Shown here in pieces: positions 7,482 through 12,790 of a DNA stretch of 22,301 nt. The notes under the pieces were generated by a model. It was not told where the DNA came from. It ran no database searches and saw only the letters and a program-made list of their open reading frames with translations. A program made the translations under genes and the position numbers. The stretch is from IMG/VR virus record IMGVR_UViG_3300025601_000138, positions 1 to 22,301 of that record; one strand, written 5' to 3'. Position 1 is the stretch's first letter. Every line of letters begins with the position of its first letter. This stretch comes from a virus.

Positions 7482-7859
7482 TTATGCCGCGAGATGATAC
7501 AGCCAGCAGTCCATATGGCCGTTTTTTTTATCATCTTCTTCTCTTGGGATAGAGTGAGGGGTCTGATCAACTAATCCAGCCGTCACGGCGTGGCGAACTG
7601 TGCCACAAACATTGTGTGAGTTTTGTTTCAGCAGCCGCGCCAAGTCTCTACTGGTCATTGGGCCGTGTTTTGCTAACGCCCTCAAGATCGGAGTAAACGC
7701 GCCAGTATCCGTGCGGCTTGCCCGTGGCTCTCCCATATCGCACGGCAAAGTGGGTCGCATTGGCTTGCCTATCAGAAGCTCATTCCCAGTGGTTCTAATG
7801 ATTTTTGTCTGGCTGCGCTCAAACTCCAGCATTTTCTGGCCTAGCTTATCGTCTGTCAT
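7482..7859 (-). CDS. Winged-helix DNA-binding protein, 125 aa
   Basis: ATG 7859 preceded by GGGAGAGAGCAG. The N-terminal 50 residues are polar with a G-N-E-L-L-I-G-K-P-M-R-P-T-L-P segment. Residues about 55-100 (F-T-P-I-L-R-A-L-A-K-H-G-P-M-T-S-R-D-L-A-R-L-L-K ... V-C-G-T-V-R-H-A-V-T-A-G-L-V) match the helix-turn-helix and wing layout of MarR-like or replication-initiation winged helices. The C-terminus contains an acidic-basic loop and ends W-L-Y-H-L-A-A. Likely a transcription regulator of the distal leftward genes, which begin after the next intergenic region; target not known. Confidence 0.6.
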   Translation of the reverse strand: MTDDKLGQKMLEFERSQTKIIRTTGNELLIGKPMRPTLPCDMGEPRASRTDTGAFTPILRALAKHGPMTSRDLARLLKQNSHNVCGTVRHAVTAGLVDQTPHSIPREEDDKKNGHMDCWLYHLAA

Positions 7860-7871
7860 CTGCTCTCTCCC

Positions 7872-8054
7872 TCAGATTTGGTATTCGTTCTGTCGCAATC
7901 CGCTGACAAAGTTTTTCAGTTCCTGTCTCGCCATCCAGAGATCGTTCTGTGAATTTGGCACTGGACTATTTCGATAAGCCTCTCGCTCCAGACGATCCAC
8001 TTGGCCCCTCAAATGGCGCAGTTCAGCGTCATGCGCTGGTGTTAGTTTCTTCAT
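7872..8054 (-). CDS. Small coiled-coil protein, 60 aa
   Basis: ATG 8054 with GGAGAG about 5-6 nt upstream, inside the end of the preceding gene (26-nt overlap). One long charged helix (E-L-R-H-L-R-G-Q-V-D-R-L-E-R-E-A) followed by a second Gln/Arg-rich helix. No function recognised. The gap to the winged-helix gene is 12 nt. Confidence 0.55.
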   Translation of the reverse strand: MKKLTPAHDAELRHLRGQVDRLEREAYRNSPVPNSQNDLWMARQELKNFVSGLRQNEYQI

Positions 8055-8199
8055 TTAGCCTCTCCTTCAGCAGCTTTTTTCGGTAAAATTTAATCTGTTC
8101 TCTGAGGCCAGCATTGTCAGCCTCCAAGCGTTTGTTCTGTTCGATCACCATCTGATATTCATCGCGGTGTATCAATTTATCCAGCCTCCATTTGGTCAT
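8029..8199 (-). CDS. Small coiled-coil protein, 56 aa
   Basis: Start ATG 8199, stop TGA 8029-8031; AAGGA lies 6 nt upstream. The protein starts M-T-K-W-R-L-D-K-L-I and is almost entirely an Asn/Gln/Leu/Lys-rich helix with a heptad pattern, so a coiled coil is likely. It overlaps the glycosyltransferase gene by 23 nt and the 60-aa gene by 26 nt in different frames. The good ribosome site and lack of any gap without it support its reality. Confidence 0.55.
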   Translation of the reverse strand: MTKWRLDKLIHRDEYQMVIEQNKRLEADNAGLREQIKFYRKKLLKERLNEETNTSA

Positions 8200-9064
8200 T
8201 TAGTTTCCTTTTAATTTTCATTCCGTAATTGTTCACACCGACAGGAGCTTCAAAGCCGTCAACATAGCAAAATTTATTTCGCTTGAACGGCCTGTAATTT
8301 ACTTCATGGTGCCAACGGTTAAATTTCCAAACCACTTTTGCTACGTCTGGATGCAAATCTTCAATCATTTGGCTCTTGGGCTTGGTGCCTTCGTGAGCGT
8401 AAAATTCTTCTGTGTTGCCGCCAGACAGCGTCTGTGTGGTGGCCTTCTCTTGCTGAAAGGCGTTGTACTGCACAGTGCAATGGCCGTCTTTTAAAACGCG
8501 CAGAGACAGGTCTGTGTCCTCATTGTATCGCCCCCTCCATCGATAGGAGATATCGTTCTGGATCAGCAGGCAAGAATAAATGCGCGTGTTATTGACAAAC
8601 GCTGGCAGAGGTTCTTTCGCTTTCACAAAAAAATCATAGCAAGGCCCAGACAAATACACATTTTTATATCGATCTGCAAAATCTTCCATTGCCCGAAATA
8701 TTGTTCCTGACGTGACCTTAATCAAAAGATTTCGGTTCAGCCTGTGGAAATATGCAATGTTGTCATCCATCACCCAATGTCTAGATGCTCCCAAATCAAT
8801 TGCATGATCCCAAGCAAAATTACGAGCGGCCCCCGGGCCTTTTGATCTGCTATCTCCAAGATCATCGCATGTATCATAGTCGAGCAGATATTTTTTCGGA
8901 AGCACCAGACATTTATCTGCACCAACTTCAGCAGCGTACATTTCAAGCTGGCTGGCTTCGACAATTATTTTGTAAGGCACACCCATCCAATCAAGCGCCT
9001 TGCTTGTCAGTCGGCTCTCCCAACGCCCCTTCGATACAATATAAACTGGATACTTAGGGTTCAT
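8177..9064 (-). CDS. TAGT-like glycosyltransferase, 295 aa
   Basis: GT-A-type layout: N-terminal Y-P-V-Y-I-V-S-K-G-R-W-E-S-R-L-T (5-20), then G-P-G-A-A-R-N-F-A-W (77-86), an acidic metal-binding-type V-M-D-D-N-I (98-103), and a catalytic-domain R-G-R-Y-N-E-D-T-D-L-S-L-R (177-189). This arrangement matches, from memory, the TET-associated glycosyltransferase (TAGT) family, which adds sugars to hydroxylated bases in phage DNA. The C-terminus is basic (K-I-K-R-K). It overlaps its neighbours by 11 and 23 nt. No TET/JBP dioxygenase or nucleotide hydroxymethylase is in the window, so the substrate may be made by a gene outside it. If no such gene exists, the enzyme may act on another acceptor. Family assignment fairly sure, substrate not. 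Confidence 0.72.
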   Translation of the reverse strand: MNPKYPVYIVSKGRWESRLTSKALDWMGVPYKIIVEASQLEMYAAEVGADKCLVLPKKYLLDYDTCDDLGDSRSKGPGAARNFAWDHAIDLGASRHWVMDDNIAYFHRLNRNLLIKVTSGTIFRAMEDFADRYKNVYLSGPCYDFFVKAKEPLPAFVNNTRIYSCLLIQNDISYRWRGRYNEDTDLSLRVLKDGHCTVQYNAFQQEKATTQTLSGGNTEEFYAHEGTKPKSQMIEDLHPDVAKVVWKFNRWHHEVNYRPFKRNKFCYVDGFEAPVGVNNYGMKIKRKLNDQMEAG

Positions 9065-9299
9065 CGATATATCGCTTATCAGACGTAATCCTGTGATCCA
9101 TTTTTGGATACCAACAGGCTTTCTGTTTTGGGCTTATCGCCTGACCCATCAATTCTTTAAATCGCATGAAATCTTCTTGATTTCTGAAGCGAACATTAAT
9201 TGCGTGATATGGACGTAAATCTTCCTGCACATACTCTGGCATCCCGTGCCACTCTGCTTCCCAATCTGTCTCCAAGTCTTCAAACAAACTATTTTGCAT
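9054..9299 (-). CDS. Conserved phage protein, 81 aa
   Basis: Start ATG 9299 (M-Q-N-S-L-F-E-D-L) has GGAG about 7 nt upstream and was preferred over an extension to 9350 that has no ribosome site. The pattern D-W-E-A-E-W-H-G-M-P-E-Y, R-F-R-N-Q-E-D-F, and G-Q-A-I-S-P-K-Q-K-A-C-W-Y-P resembles small proteins I recall beside TAGT-like glycosyltransferase genes in other phages. Function unknown; proximity suggests a link to DNA modification. Overlaps both neighbours by 11 nt. Confidence 0.6.
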   Translation of the reverse strand: MQNSLFEDLETDWEAEWHGMPEYVQEDLRPYHAINVRFRNQEDFMRFKELMGQAISPKQKACWYPKMDHRITSDKRYIDEP

Positions 9300-9675
9300 C
9301 CAAAAACTCCAGCACTTGCTTCGACGCATCGCCTGCGCCCTTCCCCACAATTACAGTGTGGCCCACCGATCTTAAATATTCGATCACTTTTTTCTGATCG
9401 GGGGAAAGCCTGCCACCCGTCACGCGCTTCATTTCGACCCAAAGATTGCAGGAGGGGATGTACAGGTCTGGTATCCCTCTGGTGACCCCCTCGGCCTTCA
9501 GCCGTGTCGCCACAGATATGCTACGCTTCTCACCGTTTGGGATCGCAAAAATCAGCGTGTCTGGATATTTGGCCCGAAACCAGTTCACAAAACCCACCTG
9601 TTCGCTGTGTTCAGAGTGCTTAAAACGGTATGTCTTCGACACCCCAATCAGCGTATAGCCCTTCTTGCTTTTCAA
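9289..9675 (-). CDS. VRR-NUC domain nuclease, 128 aa
   Basis: PD-(D/E)XK-fold nuclease of the VRR-NUC type. Visible are an early S-E-Q-V-x-F-V-N-W motif, G-I-P-D-L-Y-I-P with the metal-binding Asp, then L-W-V-E-M-K with catalytic Glu and Lys, then S-P-D-Q-K-K-V-I-E-Y-L and a G-H-T-V-I-V-G strand. The family resolves branched or flap DNA. The start is taken as TTG 9675 because GGAGAG lies exactly 5 nt upstream; a TTG at 9717 and GTG at 9642 are alternatives with poorer sites. Its 5' end overlaps the helicase gene by 56 nt in another frame. Likely part of the replication-recombination set. Confidence 0.8.
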   Translation of the reverse strand: MKSKKGYTLIGVSKTYRFKHSEHSEQVGFVNWFRAKYPDTLIFAIPNGEKRSISVATRLKAEGVTRGIPDLYIPSCNLWVEMKRVTGGRLSPDQKKVIEYLRSVGHTVIVGKGAGDASKQVLEFLDAK

Positions 9676-11275
9676 TTTTTCTCTCCACTTTTGTATAATC
9701 AAACTGCACAACCTCAAAATATTTTGGATTGTATGTCGAGGGTTTTATCTTGATGCGGCTGGGGCTATCCCACCATTGGCACTCATCAAGAGCCTCGCTC
9801 GTTGTGTCGGCCCCCGAAGATAGCAAAGGCTTACGCGCTTGGTATCTACTCGCGGCGTAGCCCCCGTGATCGGGGCATAGCCATTCGTTCACTGATAACA
9901 TCCCAGCGTAATACGTGACTTTGACCGAGTCAGGCTTGCCTTCTTTTTTGTGGCGATGGTAAATTACGCTATCCACATCGACCCATTCTTCCTTAACCTG
10001 ACTGGAGAGCATGGCCCCGCTGTAGCTGTTTGAATTATGGTTTAGCGTTGGTGGTGGAAACTCATGGCCGCAGACGTGGCATTGCAACGCCGCCGCAAAG
10101 CACATGGTCTGGCAAGCCTCGCACTGCTTCACTGGTGCCGTACCCTCGCCTGCCCCCGCAGATTCATCCTTGGGTTTTACCCTATCTATAAATCCGTGAC
10201 GCTGAACATTGGCTCCGAAATCAAGAACGAGGGCATCAGTCTTGCCTTCGGCTACTCTCGTACCCCTCCCGACCATTTGGATATAGAGGCCACAACTTGC
10301 GGTTGCTCTGCACAAACAGACAACGTCCACAGCAGGGTGATCAAATCCAGTGGTCAGCACGTTCACATTTATCAAGCATTTAAGTTCACCGCTCTTAAAG
10401 TCTGCAATCGTTTGCTCCCGCACGGCGCTGCTGTCGTTACCTGTCACCACGCCGACATCAATGTCGTGCGCCTCAAATTCATCCTTCAGCATGTAGGCGT
10501 GATTTACGCCGCTGCTAAACACCAGCCAGCTTTTGCGATCCGCGCTCAGTTCCACAATCTCAGCAACCGTCTTCCGCACCAGTTCGGGATCAGACGCAGC
10601 CGTTGCGAGGTCGCTCTCAATAAACTCACCGCCCCGTTTTTTTACGTTGGTCAGATCGATCTGGTTCAGACCACCTTTGCTAATGACAGGCGACAGGTAG
10701 CCCTGCTCCATCAGCATCGACACAGGGATGTCATAGGCTATGCCATCGAACAGATGGCCTGCACCTTTGTGGAGATAGCCACTGTCCAATCGATAGGGTG
10801 TGGCTGTCAGGCCCACCACTTTGATGTCAGGGTTGCACACTTTCAAATCAGCAATAAAGCGATTATATCGCGTCTCAGTATTTTTTGGCAGCATGTGCGC
10901 CTCATCGATCAGAATAAGGTCTGGCGCAGGAATGATGTCATAGGCGCGTTCCCAGACGCTCTGAATGCCAGCAAATGTGATCGGCTTGTCCAACACCTTC
11001 TGTTTCAGCCCTGCACTGTAGATGCCGAAATCAGCTTCTGGATACATTTTCAGTAGGCCATTGGCCCCCTGCTCCAAAAGCTCTTTGACGTGGGTCACAA
11101 TCATCACACGGGTGCCAGAAAATGACATGGCGTCTTTCACTATCTGAGCTATGATGGCTGTCTTGCCCGATCCAGTGGGTGCGACTATAAGTGGATTATC
11201 ACCCGCTTTACTCGCCCAATAGTTGTACAAGCCATCGACGGCCTCTTTTTGATAATCTCGTAATTCAAAGGTCAT
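9620..11275 (-). CDS. SF2 DEAH-box DNA helicase with zinc-finger tail, 551 aa
   Basis: Superfamily 2 helicase. Residues 33-39 give P-T-G-S-G-K-T (motif I), D-E-A-H 124-127 (motif II), T-A-T-P 157-160 (motif III). L-T-T-G-F-D-H-P (307-314) and Q-M-V-G-R-G-T-R (333-340) are motifs V and VI. After the two RecA-like lobes, C385, C388, C392, C399 and C402 form a zinc-finger-like cluster, then a C-terminal domain of about 150 residues. This architecture resembles RadD/YejH-like and phage recombination helicases. It could unwind DNA for recombination-dependent replication with the nearby nuclease and ssDNA-binding protein. Its start overlaps the HNH gene by 11 nt, with only a weak AAGAG site, so coupled translation is likely. 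Confidence 0.85.
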   Translation of the reverse strand: MTFELRDYQKEAVDGLYNYWASKAGDNPLIVAPTGSGKTAIIAQIVKDAMSFSGTRVMIVTHVKELLEQGANGLLKMYPEADFGIYSAGLKQKVLDKPITFAGIQSVWERAYDIIPAPDLILIDEAHMLPKNTETRYNRFIADLKVCNPDIKVVGLTATPYRLDSGYLHKGAGHLFDGIAYDIPVSMLMEQGYLSPVISKGGLNQIDLTNVKKRGGEFIESDLATAASDPELVRKTVAEIVELSADRKSWLVFSSGVNHAYMLKDEFEAHDIDVGVVTGNDSSAVREQTIADFKSGELKCLINVNVLTTGFDHPAVDVVCLCRATASCGLYIQMVGRGTRVAEGKTDALVLDFGANVQRHGFIDRVKPKDESAGAGEGTAPVKQCEACQTMCFAAALQCHVCGHEFPPPTLNHNSNSYSGAMLSSQVKEEWVDVDSVIYHRHKKEGKPDSVKVTYYAGMLSVNEWLCPDHGGYAASRYQARKPLLSSGADTTSEALDECQWWDSPSRIKIKPSTYNPKYFEVVQFDYTKVERKIEKQEGLYADWGVEDIPF

Positions 11276-11858
11276 GTGAAACTCTTTTTTCCGCTTGTAG
11301 CCGTGCAGCCACTGCCTCGTTCATTGTTAAAAACGTACCAAGATTAGTTTTTCTGCCATCAATATTCATCGACGCCCTCCACTTCCCTTTGTCTTTTAAA
11401 AAGCTAACGCCCTTGACGCCTGATGTGTTGGCCTTGCTGACGCCAGTGTTCGCAGACTGCTCACGCGCCGTGACCTCTCGCAAATTTACTATCCTGTTAT
11501 CGCAGCCATCTCTGTTAATGTGATCCACAGAGTTAGGCCAAATAGGATAGTGGCCGTGATGCAGAAAAAAGGCCACGCGATGCGCCTGCATTTTTTTGTC
11601 ATGGCCGCGATAAGAAATGCCACCGCATAAATAGTAGCACGTCGATCTCTCAGTCTTTACCCTGCGGCTCATAGCCAGCTTGCCACTGCGCTCTTTGTTA
11701 TATTTAGCCGCAGCACCCGCAGCACTGACAAACGAACTGCCCTCGCCAGTGTCGTAAAAATCTTCCTCTGATCGATCCTTTGCGTAAATCAGTCCAGCCT
11801 CTGGATCATAGAGAAACAAACGCCGCATCAATTCCAAATCTTCCCACCAGTTTTTCAT
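11265..11858 (-). CDS. HNH endonuclease with AP2 domain, 197 aa
   Basis: Homing-type nuclease. A zinc-less HNH core is visible as A-H-R-V-A ... V-D-H-I-N-R-D-G-C-D-N-R-I-V-N-L-R (H113, N121 region), followed by R-E-Q-S-A-N-T. A C-terminal AP2-type DNA-binding domain (about 147-190) has G-V-K-G-V-S-F ... W-R-A-S-M-N-I-D-G-R-K-T-N-L-G-T-F. This pair is typical of selfish phage homing endonucleases. Start is ATG 11858, 1-nt TGATG overlap with the upstream stop and AGAGG about 8 nt away; a GTG at 11861 is less likely. It sits between the Cas4/RecB-like nuclease and the helicase without breaking either, so it is a tolerated insertion in the recombination operon. Confidence 0.85.
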   Translation of the reverse strand: MKNWWEDLELMRRLFLYDPEAGLIYAKDRSEEDFYDTGEGSSFVSAAGAAAKYNKERSGKLAMSRRVKTERSTCYYLCGGISYRGHDKKMQAHRVAFFLHHGHYPIWPNSVDHINRDGCDNRIVNLREVTAREQSANTGVSKANTSGVKGVSFLKDKGKWRASMNIDGRKTNLGTFLTMNEAVAARLQAEKRVSHDL

Positions 11859-12790
11859 CACGAAAACCTCTCCCTCAATAACCTCTCCCTCAATTCTTCG
11901 CTGTTGTCTTGATTGCGGATGACGCCATGTGGGGTCTGATACTCCACGAAATCATCTCCAGCGTCTATGATCTCCCAATCGTCAGGAACCATGAAAGGAT
12001 TAAACAGGTGGCCCCCTGCGCCCTCTTTACGGCTCCAAGTGCCGTCCCGCTCTGGAGTGCTGTGGGCGTCTGTTCTGGCATTAACTTCTGGCAGTTCACC
12101 GCCGTGACAAATCGGAATATAATTACAAAACCTACAAGCAAACTTTGACGGGTCATGGCTGATTTTAGACGGTGGCTTTTCGTCAAAGATGATATTGCTG
12201 GCTTTGCTAATTAGCATCTCACCCTCTGCCCGATCCCGCTTGATCCGCTCAGAATAAATCTCATCGTTATTTTTGTTCACGGCAAAGAAATAACAACGAT
12301 CAATGTCAGCCAAGTGCATCCCGACTTGGCACTGCGCCCAGTAAACGGGCTTACTGATCCTGACGCCCTTCATTTTTGTCTGGGCAAAGCTCTTATCGTT
12401 CATCGTTTTAAATTCCAAAGTGTGCGGCTCTTTGCTCTCAGGAAAGCCAACGCCAATTCCATCTAAGCTCAATCCAAAGTGACCCCCGCAGGCCGTGTAA
12501 TTTATCTGTCGGCCAGTGTCTGGATCGACCTCCCACACCTCAACGCCAATCGATCTCAAGTTTGACACGATCCGCTCCTCCTCGCGGTCACCCGTTTCAA
12601 ACAGGCGCAGCATACGCCCCTCAAAGCTCTGTGAGCTTGCGTGTCGAAACTGATACCACAATGCCCGACTGCACGGGTTGCCTATCTGACTTCCCCCCAG
12701 ATGCGGCCTGTGGCCGTTATCGCGGCTTGCCTCGTAGTGTTCGTAAATTTTCTGCACTGTGGGCGATGGATTGTATTTATCAAGGTTCAT
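11858..12790 (-). CDS. Cas4/RecB-type PD-(D/E)XK nuclease with Fe-S cysteines, 310 aa
   Basis: Exonuclease-type fold: C40 (I-G-N-P-C-S-R-A-L-W-Y), H104, D110 (S-L-D-G-I-G), E126 and K128 (L-E-F-K-T), then Q153-type helix (Y-W-A-Q-C-Q-V-G-M-H-L). C219, C222 and C228 (F-A-C-R-F-C-N-Y-I-P-I-C) with C40 form the four-Cys set that holds a 4Fe-4S cluster in Cas4 and AddB-type nucleases. It probably resects DNA ends to give single strands for the Sak4-like recombinase. A C-terminal extension (about 230-310) has no recognised motif. GAGAGGAG lies 5 nt before ATG. No CRISPR array or Cas1 is present, so this is a phage recombination nuclease rather than a CRISPR adaptation gene. Confidence 0.82.
   Translation of the reverse strand: MNLDKYNPSPTVQKIYEHYEASRDNGHRPHLGGSQIGNPCSRALWYQFRHASSQSFEGRMLRLFETGDREEERIVSNLRSIGVEVWEVDPDTGRQINYTACGGHFGLSLDGIGVGFPESKEPHTLEFKTMNDKSFAQTKMKGVRISKPVYWAQCQVGMHLADIDRCYFFAVNKNNDEIYSERIKRDRAEGEMLISKASNIIFDEKPPSKISHDPSKFACRFCNYIPICHGGELPEVNARTDAHSTPERDGTWSRKEGAGGHLFNPFMVPDDWEIIDAGDDFVEYQTPHGVIRNQDNSEELRERLLRERFS

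Follow-up and report, generated by a model that had tools for sequence, protein, structure and literature searches.

An obligate partner protein and a TAGT glycosyltransferase form an exchangeable cassette, possibly for DNA glycosylation, in phages and prophages

Introduction

The IMG/VR virus record IMGVR_UViG_3300025601_000138, analysed here in its complete length of 22,301 bases (termed the window) and probably belonging to a genome of ~52 kb in full, carries a gene for a TAGT glycosyltransferase directly preceded by a gene for a protein of 81 amino acids (aa), which we call S. The locus raises the question of what such an enzyme could glycosylate when no enzyme producing a hydroxylated base is visible beside it. 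An earlier note made from these letters alone had proposed either that the base-modifying partner is encoded elsewhere or that the acceptor differs from the known one. We report here that S is an obligate partner of the TAGT, that both genes are gained and lost together, and that they occupy a slot which related phages fill with known or predicted DNA modifiers, and we propose that the pair probably modifies phage DNA.

Results

The TAGT and its obligate partner

The likeness to DNA-hypermodification glycosyltransferases proposed in the earlier note was borne out by profile searches. Residues 5-211 of the window TAGT match PF20691 (E=3.4e-44, 151.7 bits for a cut-off of 27.5, 201/205 profile positions) and the protein also matches phrog_842 (E=6e-53). 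It displays the motifs DDN (100-102), NED (181-183) and RWHH (250-253), and in an alignment of 31 homologues with 26-89% identity to the window TAGT, residues R81, N82, D100, D101, N181, E182, D183, R250, H252 and H253 were invariant and N102 nearly so. No solved TAGT structure was found by a sequence search. The fold was judged via these motifs and an AlphaFold2 model of a homologue fused to S (L067), whose TAGT part mostly exceeded a predicted local distance difference test score (pLDDT) of 90 and whose nearest PDB folds by Foldseek were the GT-A enzymes LARGE1, GnT-I, SunS and GalNAc-T2, albeit with low template modelling (TM) scores of 0.29-0.39. The window protein is thus predicted to adopt a GT-A fold and, given its conserved catalytic-type motifs, is very probably an active glycosyltransferase. 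Neither S nor TAGT matched a Mom or GNAT family in Pfam or PHROG.

S itself, whose consensus reads W..MPEF.QE...I.VRF...D...F..LIGQ.....SIW.P, has no family match in Pfam, PHROG or NCBIfam, and weak profile matches to UPF3 and eIF3J (E about 0.17) were set aside. A scan restricted to proteins with the motif EWx[GD]MPE[FY] returned at least 78 viral loci, with about 18 contigs shared with the TAGT-based set and about 60 new ones. Among the S-motif matches listed, TAGT adjoins or is fused to S in 78/78 viral and 16/16 bacterial loci. Conversely, S was found directly upstream in nearly all of the best 80 viral TAGT loci, which include two fusions of S to the TAGT N-terminus (L067 and L079); further fusions are found in L083-L089, and most cultured relatives examined carry the fused form. 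S lies ~0.7-0.8 kb upstream of TAGT, with one gene between, in L052, L055, L057, L064 and L081. The S consensus is matched in 18 of 50,697 phage records, all within the 23 records that carry this type of TAGT, and no S was found in plasmids. S, never seen without TAGT among the matches listed, is an obligate TAGT partner, a tie stronger than the coupling to a small conserved protein that the earlier note had claimed. Furthermore, the divergence of S parallels that of TAGT (Mantel r=0.43, 0/2000 permutations, 66 thinned loci), and on this sequence evidence the two proteins almost certainly work together. Since the genes overlap by 11 nucleotides at both the VRR-NUC/S and the S/TAGT junctions, translation of VRR-NUC, S and TAGT is suggested to be coupled.

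Some prophage forms of S have a ParB_N domain at the N-terminus, detected above the Pfam cut-off in L186, L187 and L193 and below it in L190 and L195; L195 encodes a single ParB_N-S-TAGT chain. In L186, ParB_N-S is followed in turn by TAGT, a small protein with DUF5681 and the terminase large subunit, an order that is similar in L188 and L190. Around S-TAGT, genes for DNA replication and recombination predominate; apart from these themes the neighbours vary between phages, and no conserved third gene was found beside the pair.

Several loci depart from the simple arrangement. A gene for a class I S-adenosylmethionine (SAM)-dependent methyltransferase lies between S and TAGT in L052:1488-2258, L064:2356-3198 and L081:9150-10001; its product could methylate the transferred sugar, and it was rejected as a core component, being too rare (3 contigs). 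One phage contig carries two tandem S-TAGT pairs whose copies have diverged (L118:2827-5510), and Vibrio phage Kuja (Ackermannviridae) two adjoining TAGT genes with a thyA-annotated gene nearby (L088:7581-10269). In a Desulfosporosinus contig from a metagenome-assembled genome, the gene immediately after TAGT encodes a radical SAM/SPASM protein (L191:7099-8076), and Vibrio phage henriette 12B8 has separate S and TAGT open reading frames (ORFs), both unannotated in its record (L090:7628-8894).

Gain and loss of the cassette as one unit

Contig IMGVR_UViG_3300023501_000034 (termed G028, 29,255 bases) is near-isogenic to the window, with 99.7-99.9% identity over 22.3 kb, cassette excepted. Window positions 8202-9298 are missing from it and a single base stands in their place, the gap falling exactly after the stop of VRR-NUC and before the next small gene begins. 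This small gene, a 56-aa ORF, begins within the 3' end of TAGT in the window and directly follows VRR-NUC in the empty form. The cassette is the sole insertion/deletion difference over the 22.3 kb shared by the two contigs, about 30 kb not being compared, so no second gene was gained or lost with it there. S-TAGT is a clean ~1-kb cassette, gained or lost as one unit. A misassembly of the pair was considered and rejected, as S-TAGT occupies the same slot in 14 other contigs.

Exchange with known or predicted DNA modifiers in two lineages

A scan with the helicase encoded next to VRR-NUC gave 80 relatives at 76-100% identity, to which the window and Roseobacter phage CRP-902 (complete genome, 51,954 bases) are added in the following counts. 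The slot was found to contain S-TAGT in 15 cases, Mom in 16, an ABC-ATPase-GNAT protein in 5, a GNAT protein in 12 and something else in 3 (3/51 filled slots), while it was empty in 19 and cut off in 12. Its content varies even among phages with helicases at least 97% identical, one such group displaying TAGT in 7, GNAT in 5 and Mom in 3 cases, with 2 cut off. In CRP-902, a Mom protein directly follows VRR-NUC at the S-TAGT position (PF25680, E=2e-41; phrog_1384, E=4e-52), and only small ORFs are present at the slot of CRP-901. The position of S-TAGT is that of known or predicted DNA modifiers (Mom, ABC-GNAT) in close relatives. The GNAT acetyltransferase found after VRR-NUC in 12 relatives (e.g. 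L222:4107-4784 and L272:4428-5033) has no assigned target and is, from its position, a candidate new DNA modifier.

A comparable exchange was observed between two other phages. In Aeromonas phage Aeh1, a fused S-TAGT (p093), the TAGT part of which is 61% identical to the window TAGT, lies between p094 and p091, with the small p092. PX29 has homologous flanks (73-87% identity to those of Aeh1), and between them lies gp085, an ABC-ATPase-GNAT protein with 48% identity to the one from the marine slot. QAX98348.1, which is 100% identical to PX29 gp085, is a predicted DNA base acyltransferase (PMC7824862), and in PMC8056088 both PX29p085 and the Aeh1 transferase figure among presumed modifiers of DNA, base unknown. 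Judged by these homologies, the exchange between TAGT and ABC-GNAT in Aeh1 and PX29 is an independent second swap in an unrelated lineage. Of 50,697 phage records, 23 carry a TAGT of the S-TAGT type, 51 an ABC-GNAT and 144 a Mom protein, and because all three families are rare, their repeated sharing of one slot by chance is very unlikely.

Search for a hydroxylated-base pathway

The statement of the earlier note that no hydroxylase or hydroxymethylase is visible holds in the window, and relatives likewise lack a consistent partner. The gene search that it had suggested was run on these relatives. Its thymidylate synthase (TS) and dCMP hydroxymethylase part was negative: neither PF00303 (TS/hydroxymethylase) nor PF00145 (C5-methylase) was found in 27 long IMG/VR contigs carrying the S-TAGT pair, and no TS-family gene in 20 close window relatives, including the complete 52-kb CRP-902. 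The only PF00145 match among the records searched was in Vibrio phage 1.124.O. In the TET/JBP part, Tet_JBP (PF12851) gave no match in 35 records and none in the control genomes either, which makes this a weak negative. Since none is consistently present, PF12851 (searched without positive control), PF00303, PF00145, PF02511 and PF13640 were rejected as cassette partners. Among the window ORFs examined, no alpha- or beta-glucosyltransferase (GT) for a first sugar was recognised, no genome-wide search having been made.

TS genes are present in six large cultured phages, and the Asn typical of TS is found in those of phiAS5, henriette and PTm1. Aeh1 and 65, both carriers of the fused S-TAGT, lack T4 genes 42 and 56 (PMC2993671). 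The early genes of the window are syntenic with those of CRP-902 (identities of 75% for PrimPol, 83% for AAA_24, 62% for the nuclease, 73% for HNH, 66% for the helicase and 65% for VRR-NUC), and from this synteny the part absent from the window record would be the structural module. Of the two possibilities left by the earlier note, a different acceptor is favoured and a partner encoded elsewhere disfavoured, by the lack of TS-family genes in the 27 contigs and 20 relatives and by the fact that G028 differs by the cassette alone.

Features of the window

The genes at and around the slot are collected in Table 1. Outside it, CRP-902 gp16 (L198:7585-8529) is named 'oxidoreductase', and its window homologue (11858-12790) weakly resembles Cas4/lambda-exonuclease nucleases (E about 0.008); from this resemblance the name is likely a mis-annotation.

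Table 1. Coordinates of the S-TAGT cassette and of the genes bordering its slot in the window
Feature	Position	Strand	Basis
TAGT glycosyltransferase, 295 aa, ATG start	8177..9064	-	PF20691, E=3.4e-44
S protein, 81 aa	9054..9299	-	beside or fused to TAGT in loci found via the S motif
S-TAGT cassette, 1097 bp	8202..9298	-	exact segment missing from IMGVR_UViG_3300023501_000034
VRR-NUC nuclease, upstream slot edge	9289..9717	-	PF08774, E=1.1e-5; 65% identity to CRP-902 gp21
Superfamily 2 (SF2) helicase (ResIII), anchor for slot comparison	9620..11275	-	PF04851, E=2e-22
Small ORF, 56 aa, MTKWRLDKL..., downstream slot edge	8029..8199	-	gene call and junction sequences
Conserved 60-aa ORF downstream of slot, empty-slot marker in relatives	7872..8054	-	slot comparison
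Winged-helix (MarR-like) protein downstream of slot, empty-slot marker in relatives	7482..7859	-	PF12802, E=1.3e-7

Discussion

We propose that S and TAGT constitute a two-gene, self-contained and exchangeable cassette modifying phage DNA. The TAGT, as a GT-A enzyme, would move a sugar from a host nucleotide-sugar onto bases of the phage DNA, where it would block restriction-like nucleases of the host. S would act as a dedicated accessory subunit, most likely bringing TAGT to DNA or completing the acceptor site. It would be translated immediately before TAGT where the frames overlap, is part of the same chain in the fusions, and can be joined to ParB_N in prophages. At one slot, phages would exchange the cassette for other stand-alone DNA modifiers such as Mom and ABC-GNAT. 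The acceptor would be a base of the ordinary kind or a product of host modification; a phage-made 5-hydroxymethylpyrimidine is less to be expected, because Mom acts without phage-made hydroxylated bases and no pathway for them was found. A self-contained DNA-glycosylation cassette is the simplest explanation because it accounts for the conserved motifs, the obligate partner, the clean unit, the alternation in two lineages, the tie to ParB_N and the setting among replication genes. On this context, S-TAGT probably modifies DNA and serves in anti-restriction, and an acceptor other than a phage-made 5-hydroxymethylpyrimidine appears rather likely; for the full chain, from an exchangeable DNA-glycosylation cassette to a non-hydroxymethylated acceptor, we consider the chances about even. 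More tentatively still, S and TAGT might act as the two subunits of one enzyme glycosylating an ordinary base that is not hydroxylated, in place and e.g. at the exocyclic amine of adenine or cytosine, as a single-step system exchangeable with Mom and in phages and prophages alike, an idea that we hold to be doubtful.

Several observations weigh against this proposal. The assignment of DNA as acceptor relies on genomic context. To our knowledge, the T2/T6 gentiobiosyl transferase is the only characterised phage TAGT, and it places its sugar onto the sugar of hydroxymethylcytosine (HMC), so that the precedent is a hydroxyl acceptor; the TAGT of GREB1 is reported to glycosylate protein. The fold of S alone was poorly predicted (mean pLDDT 73, predicted TM score 0.42) and its model had no structural match in the PDB. 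Thy1 (PF02511) was present in 3/35 records and a 2OG-Fe(II) oxygenase (PF13640) in 1/35, the Tet_JBP negative carries little weight, and most contigs are fragments, which makes the absence of a hydroxylase suggestive and not proof. Some phages in which the T4 modification network is missing are sensitive to cleavage by type II enzymes (PMC2993671).

These points give most room to a conventional hydroxylated-base acceptor, supplied by a hydroxylase or hydroxymethylase of the host, by one from an unrecognised family or by one encoded in the unsequenced part of the genome. The T6 TAGT acts on modified hydroxymethylcytosine (PMC13216743), the window covers 22.3 kb of probably ~52 kb, and Tenacibaculum phage PTm1 encodes a putative pyrimidine hydroxymethylase (L197:2175-2852) besides a true TS elsewhere in its genome, which makes it the only examined carrier of the cassette with a candidate for a conventional acceptor. 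We nevertheless regard this explanation as unlikely: the missing part of the window genome corresponds to the structural module by CRP-902 synteny, TS-family genes were found in 0/27 cassette contigs and 0/20 relatives, over 22.3 kb only the cassette is missing from the near-isogenic G028, the TS-type Asn is retained in the TS genes of phiAS5, henriette and PTm1, and Mom, which occupies the same slot elsewhere, requires no hydroxylating partner.

The target could also be a host protein, S selecting for instance a restriction or transcription protein on which the TAGT would act as a counter-defence or takeover effector. Protein glycosyltransferases (GalNAc-T2, SunS, LARGE1) are among the nearest PDB folds, the TAGT of GREB1 is reported to act on protein, and a slot of this kind may house anti-restriction proteins as well as DNA modifiers; however, resemblance to GT-A enzymes is an unspecific trait, in two unrelated phage lineages S-TAGT alternates at its slot with modifiers of DNA bases, and both the ParB_N fusion and the DNA-replication neighbourhood point to DNA. 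The TAGT moreover keeps 48-89% identity among phages that are unrelated and infect many hosts, which is better accommodated by a universal acceptor than by a host-specific protein, and a protein target seems rather improbable. The same neighbourhoods and the same alternation argue against a decoration of cell-surface or tail glycans leading to superinfection exclusion or receptor change, which is highly unlikely even though it is a common role of phage glycosyltransferases and though, in Vibrio phage 1.076.O, the fused gene is flanked by portal and head genes; no association with membranes or glycan pathways was observed. That the pair is an accessory without DNA role at a merely permissive insertion site would agree with the 19 empty slots, hence with dispensability, but the contents nearly all belong to a few rare families, namely known or predicted DNA-base modifiers and the GNAT without assigned target, with something else in just 3/51 filled slots, and the Aeh1/PX29 swap is an independent repeat; we give this explanation very little credit.

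TAGT genes occur in hundreds of phages that lack the enzymes making the known acceptor. For one subfamily of these solitary TAGTs there is now an obligate partner, a link to ParB_N, an exchange slot in two lineages and a near-isogenic contig pair, and the S-TAGT cassette makes the question directly testable. If DNA is the acceptor, two small genes would suffice for DNA glycosylation without a hydroxylated-base pathway. Phages would then protect their DNA by a new chemistry, which might also serve as a DNA-labelling tool; were the single-step reaction on an unhydroxylated base true, many solitary TAGTs would be explained. The exchange slot may in addition be used for finding further modifiers, the GNAT in this position being one candidate.

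Comparison with known systems

The TAGT family (PF20691) reportedly goes back to Iyer et al. in 2013, and the window TAGT falls into this profile family together with Aeh1 ORF087c. The latter is listed as a putative glucosyltransferase with 'unknown base' in PMC8056088. The S-TAGT phages examined differ from the family in that no TET/JBP partner was detected, a weak negative for want of a positive control, and the sections consulted of the literature on the family mention neither an obligate S nor a slot exchange with Mom or ABC-GNAT. The T2/T6 beta-glucosyl-HMC-alpha-glucosyltransferase (ggt, the gentiobiosyl transferase) also matches PF20691 and is a predicted GT-A enzyme; it has no significant BLASTP alignment with the window TAGT, and its 261 aa leave no room for S. 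Moreover, T6 ggt acts after the gp42 hydroxymethylase and an alpha-GT, both absent or undetected in S-TAGT phages, and no gp42-type dCMP hydroxymethylase was found in the 27 cassette contigs and 20 relatives, the window genome being incomplete. The name 'beta-glucosyl-HMC-alpha-glucosyltransferase' given by phrog_842 and databases is misleading as a function for S-TAGT genes.

Also comparable are the solitary TAGTs found in 288/753 phage genomes without alpha- or beta-GT, whose function and acceptor were left open (PMC13216743, 2026). They share with the window a TAGT without known upstream glucosyltransferase, and for one subfamily of them the present work contributes the partner, the cassette and the slot. 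Phage and prophage ParB_N proteins are related through the prophage fusions of ParB_N to S; S of the window has no ParB_N, and the link is made through homologues only. Finally, Mom (PF25680) and ABC-ATPase-GNAT resemble S-TAGT as stand-alone modifiers of the same syntenic slot that are apparently dispensable and exchangeable, yet they are unrelated acyltransferases, whereas S-TAGT would transfer a sugar.
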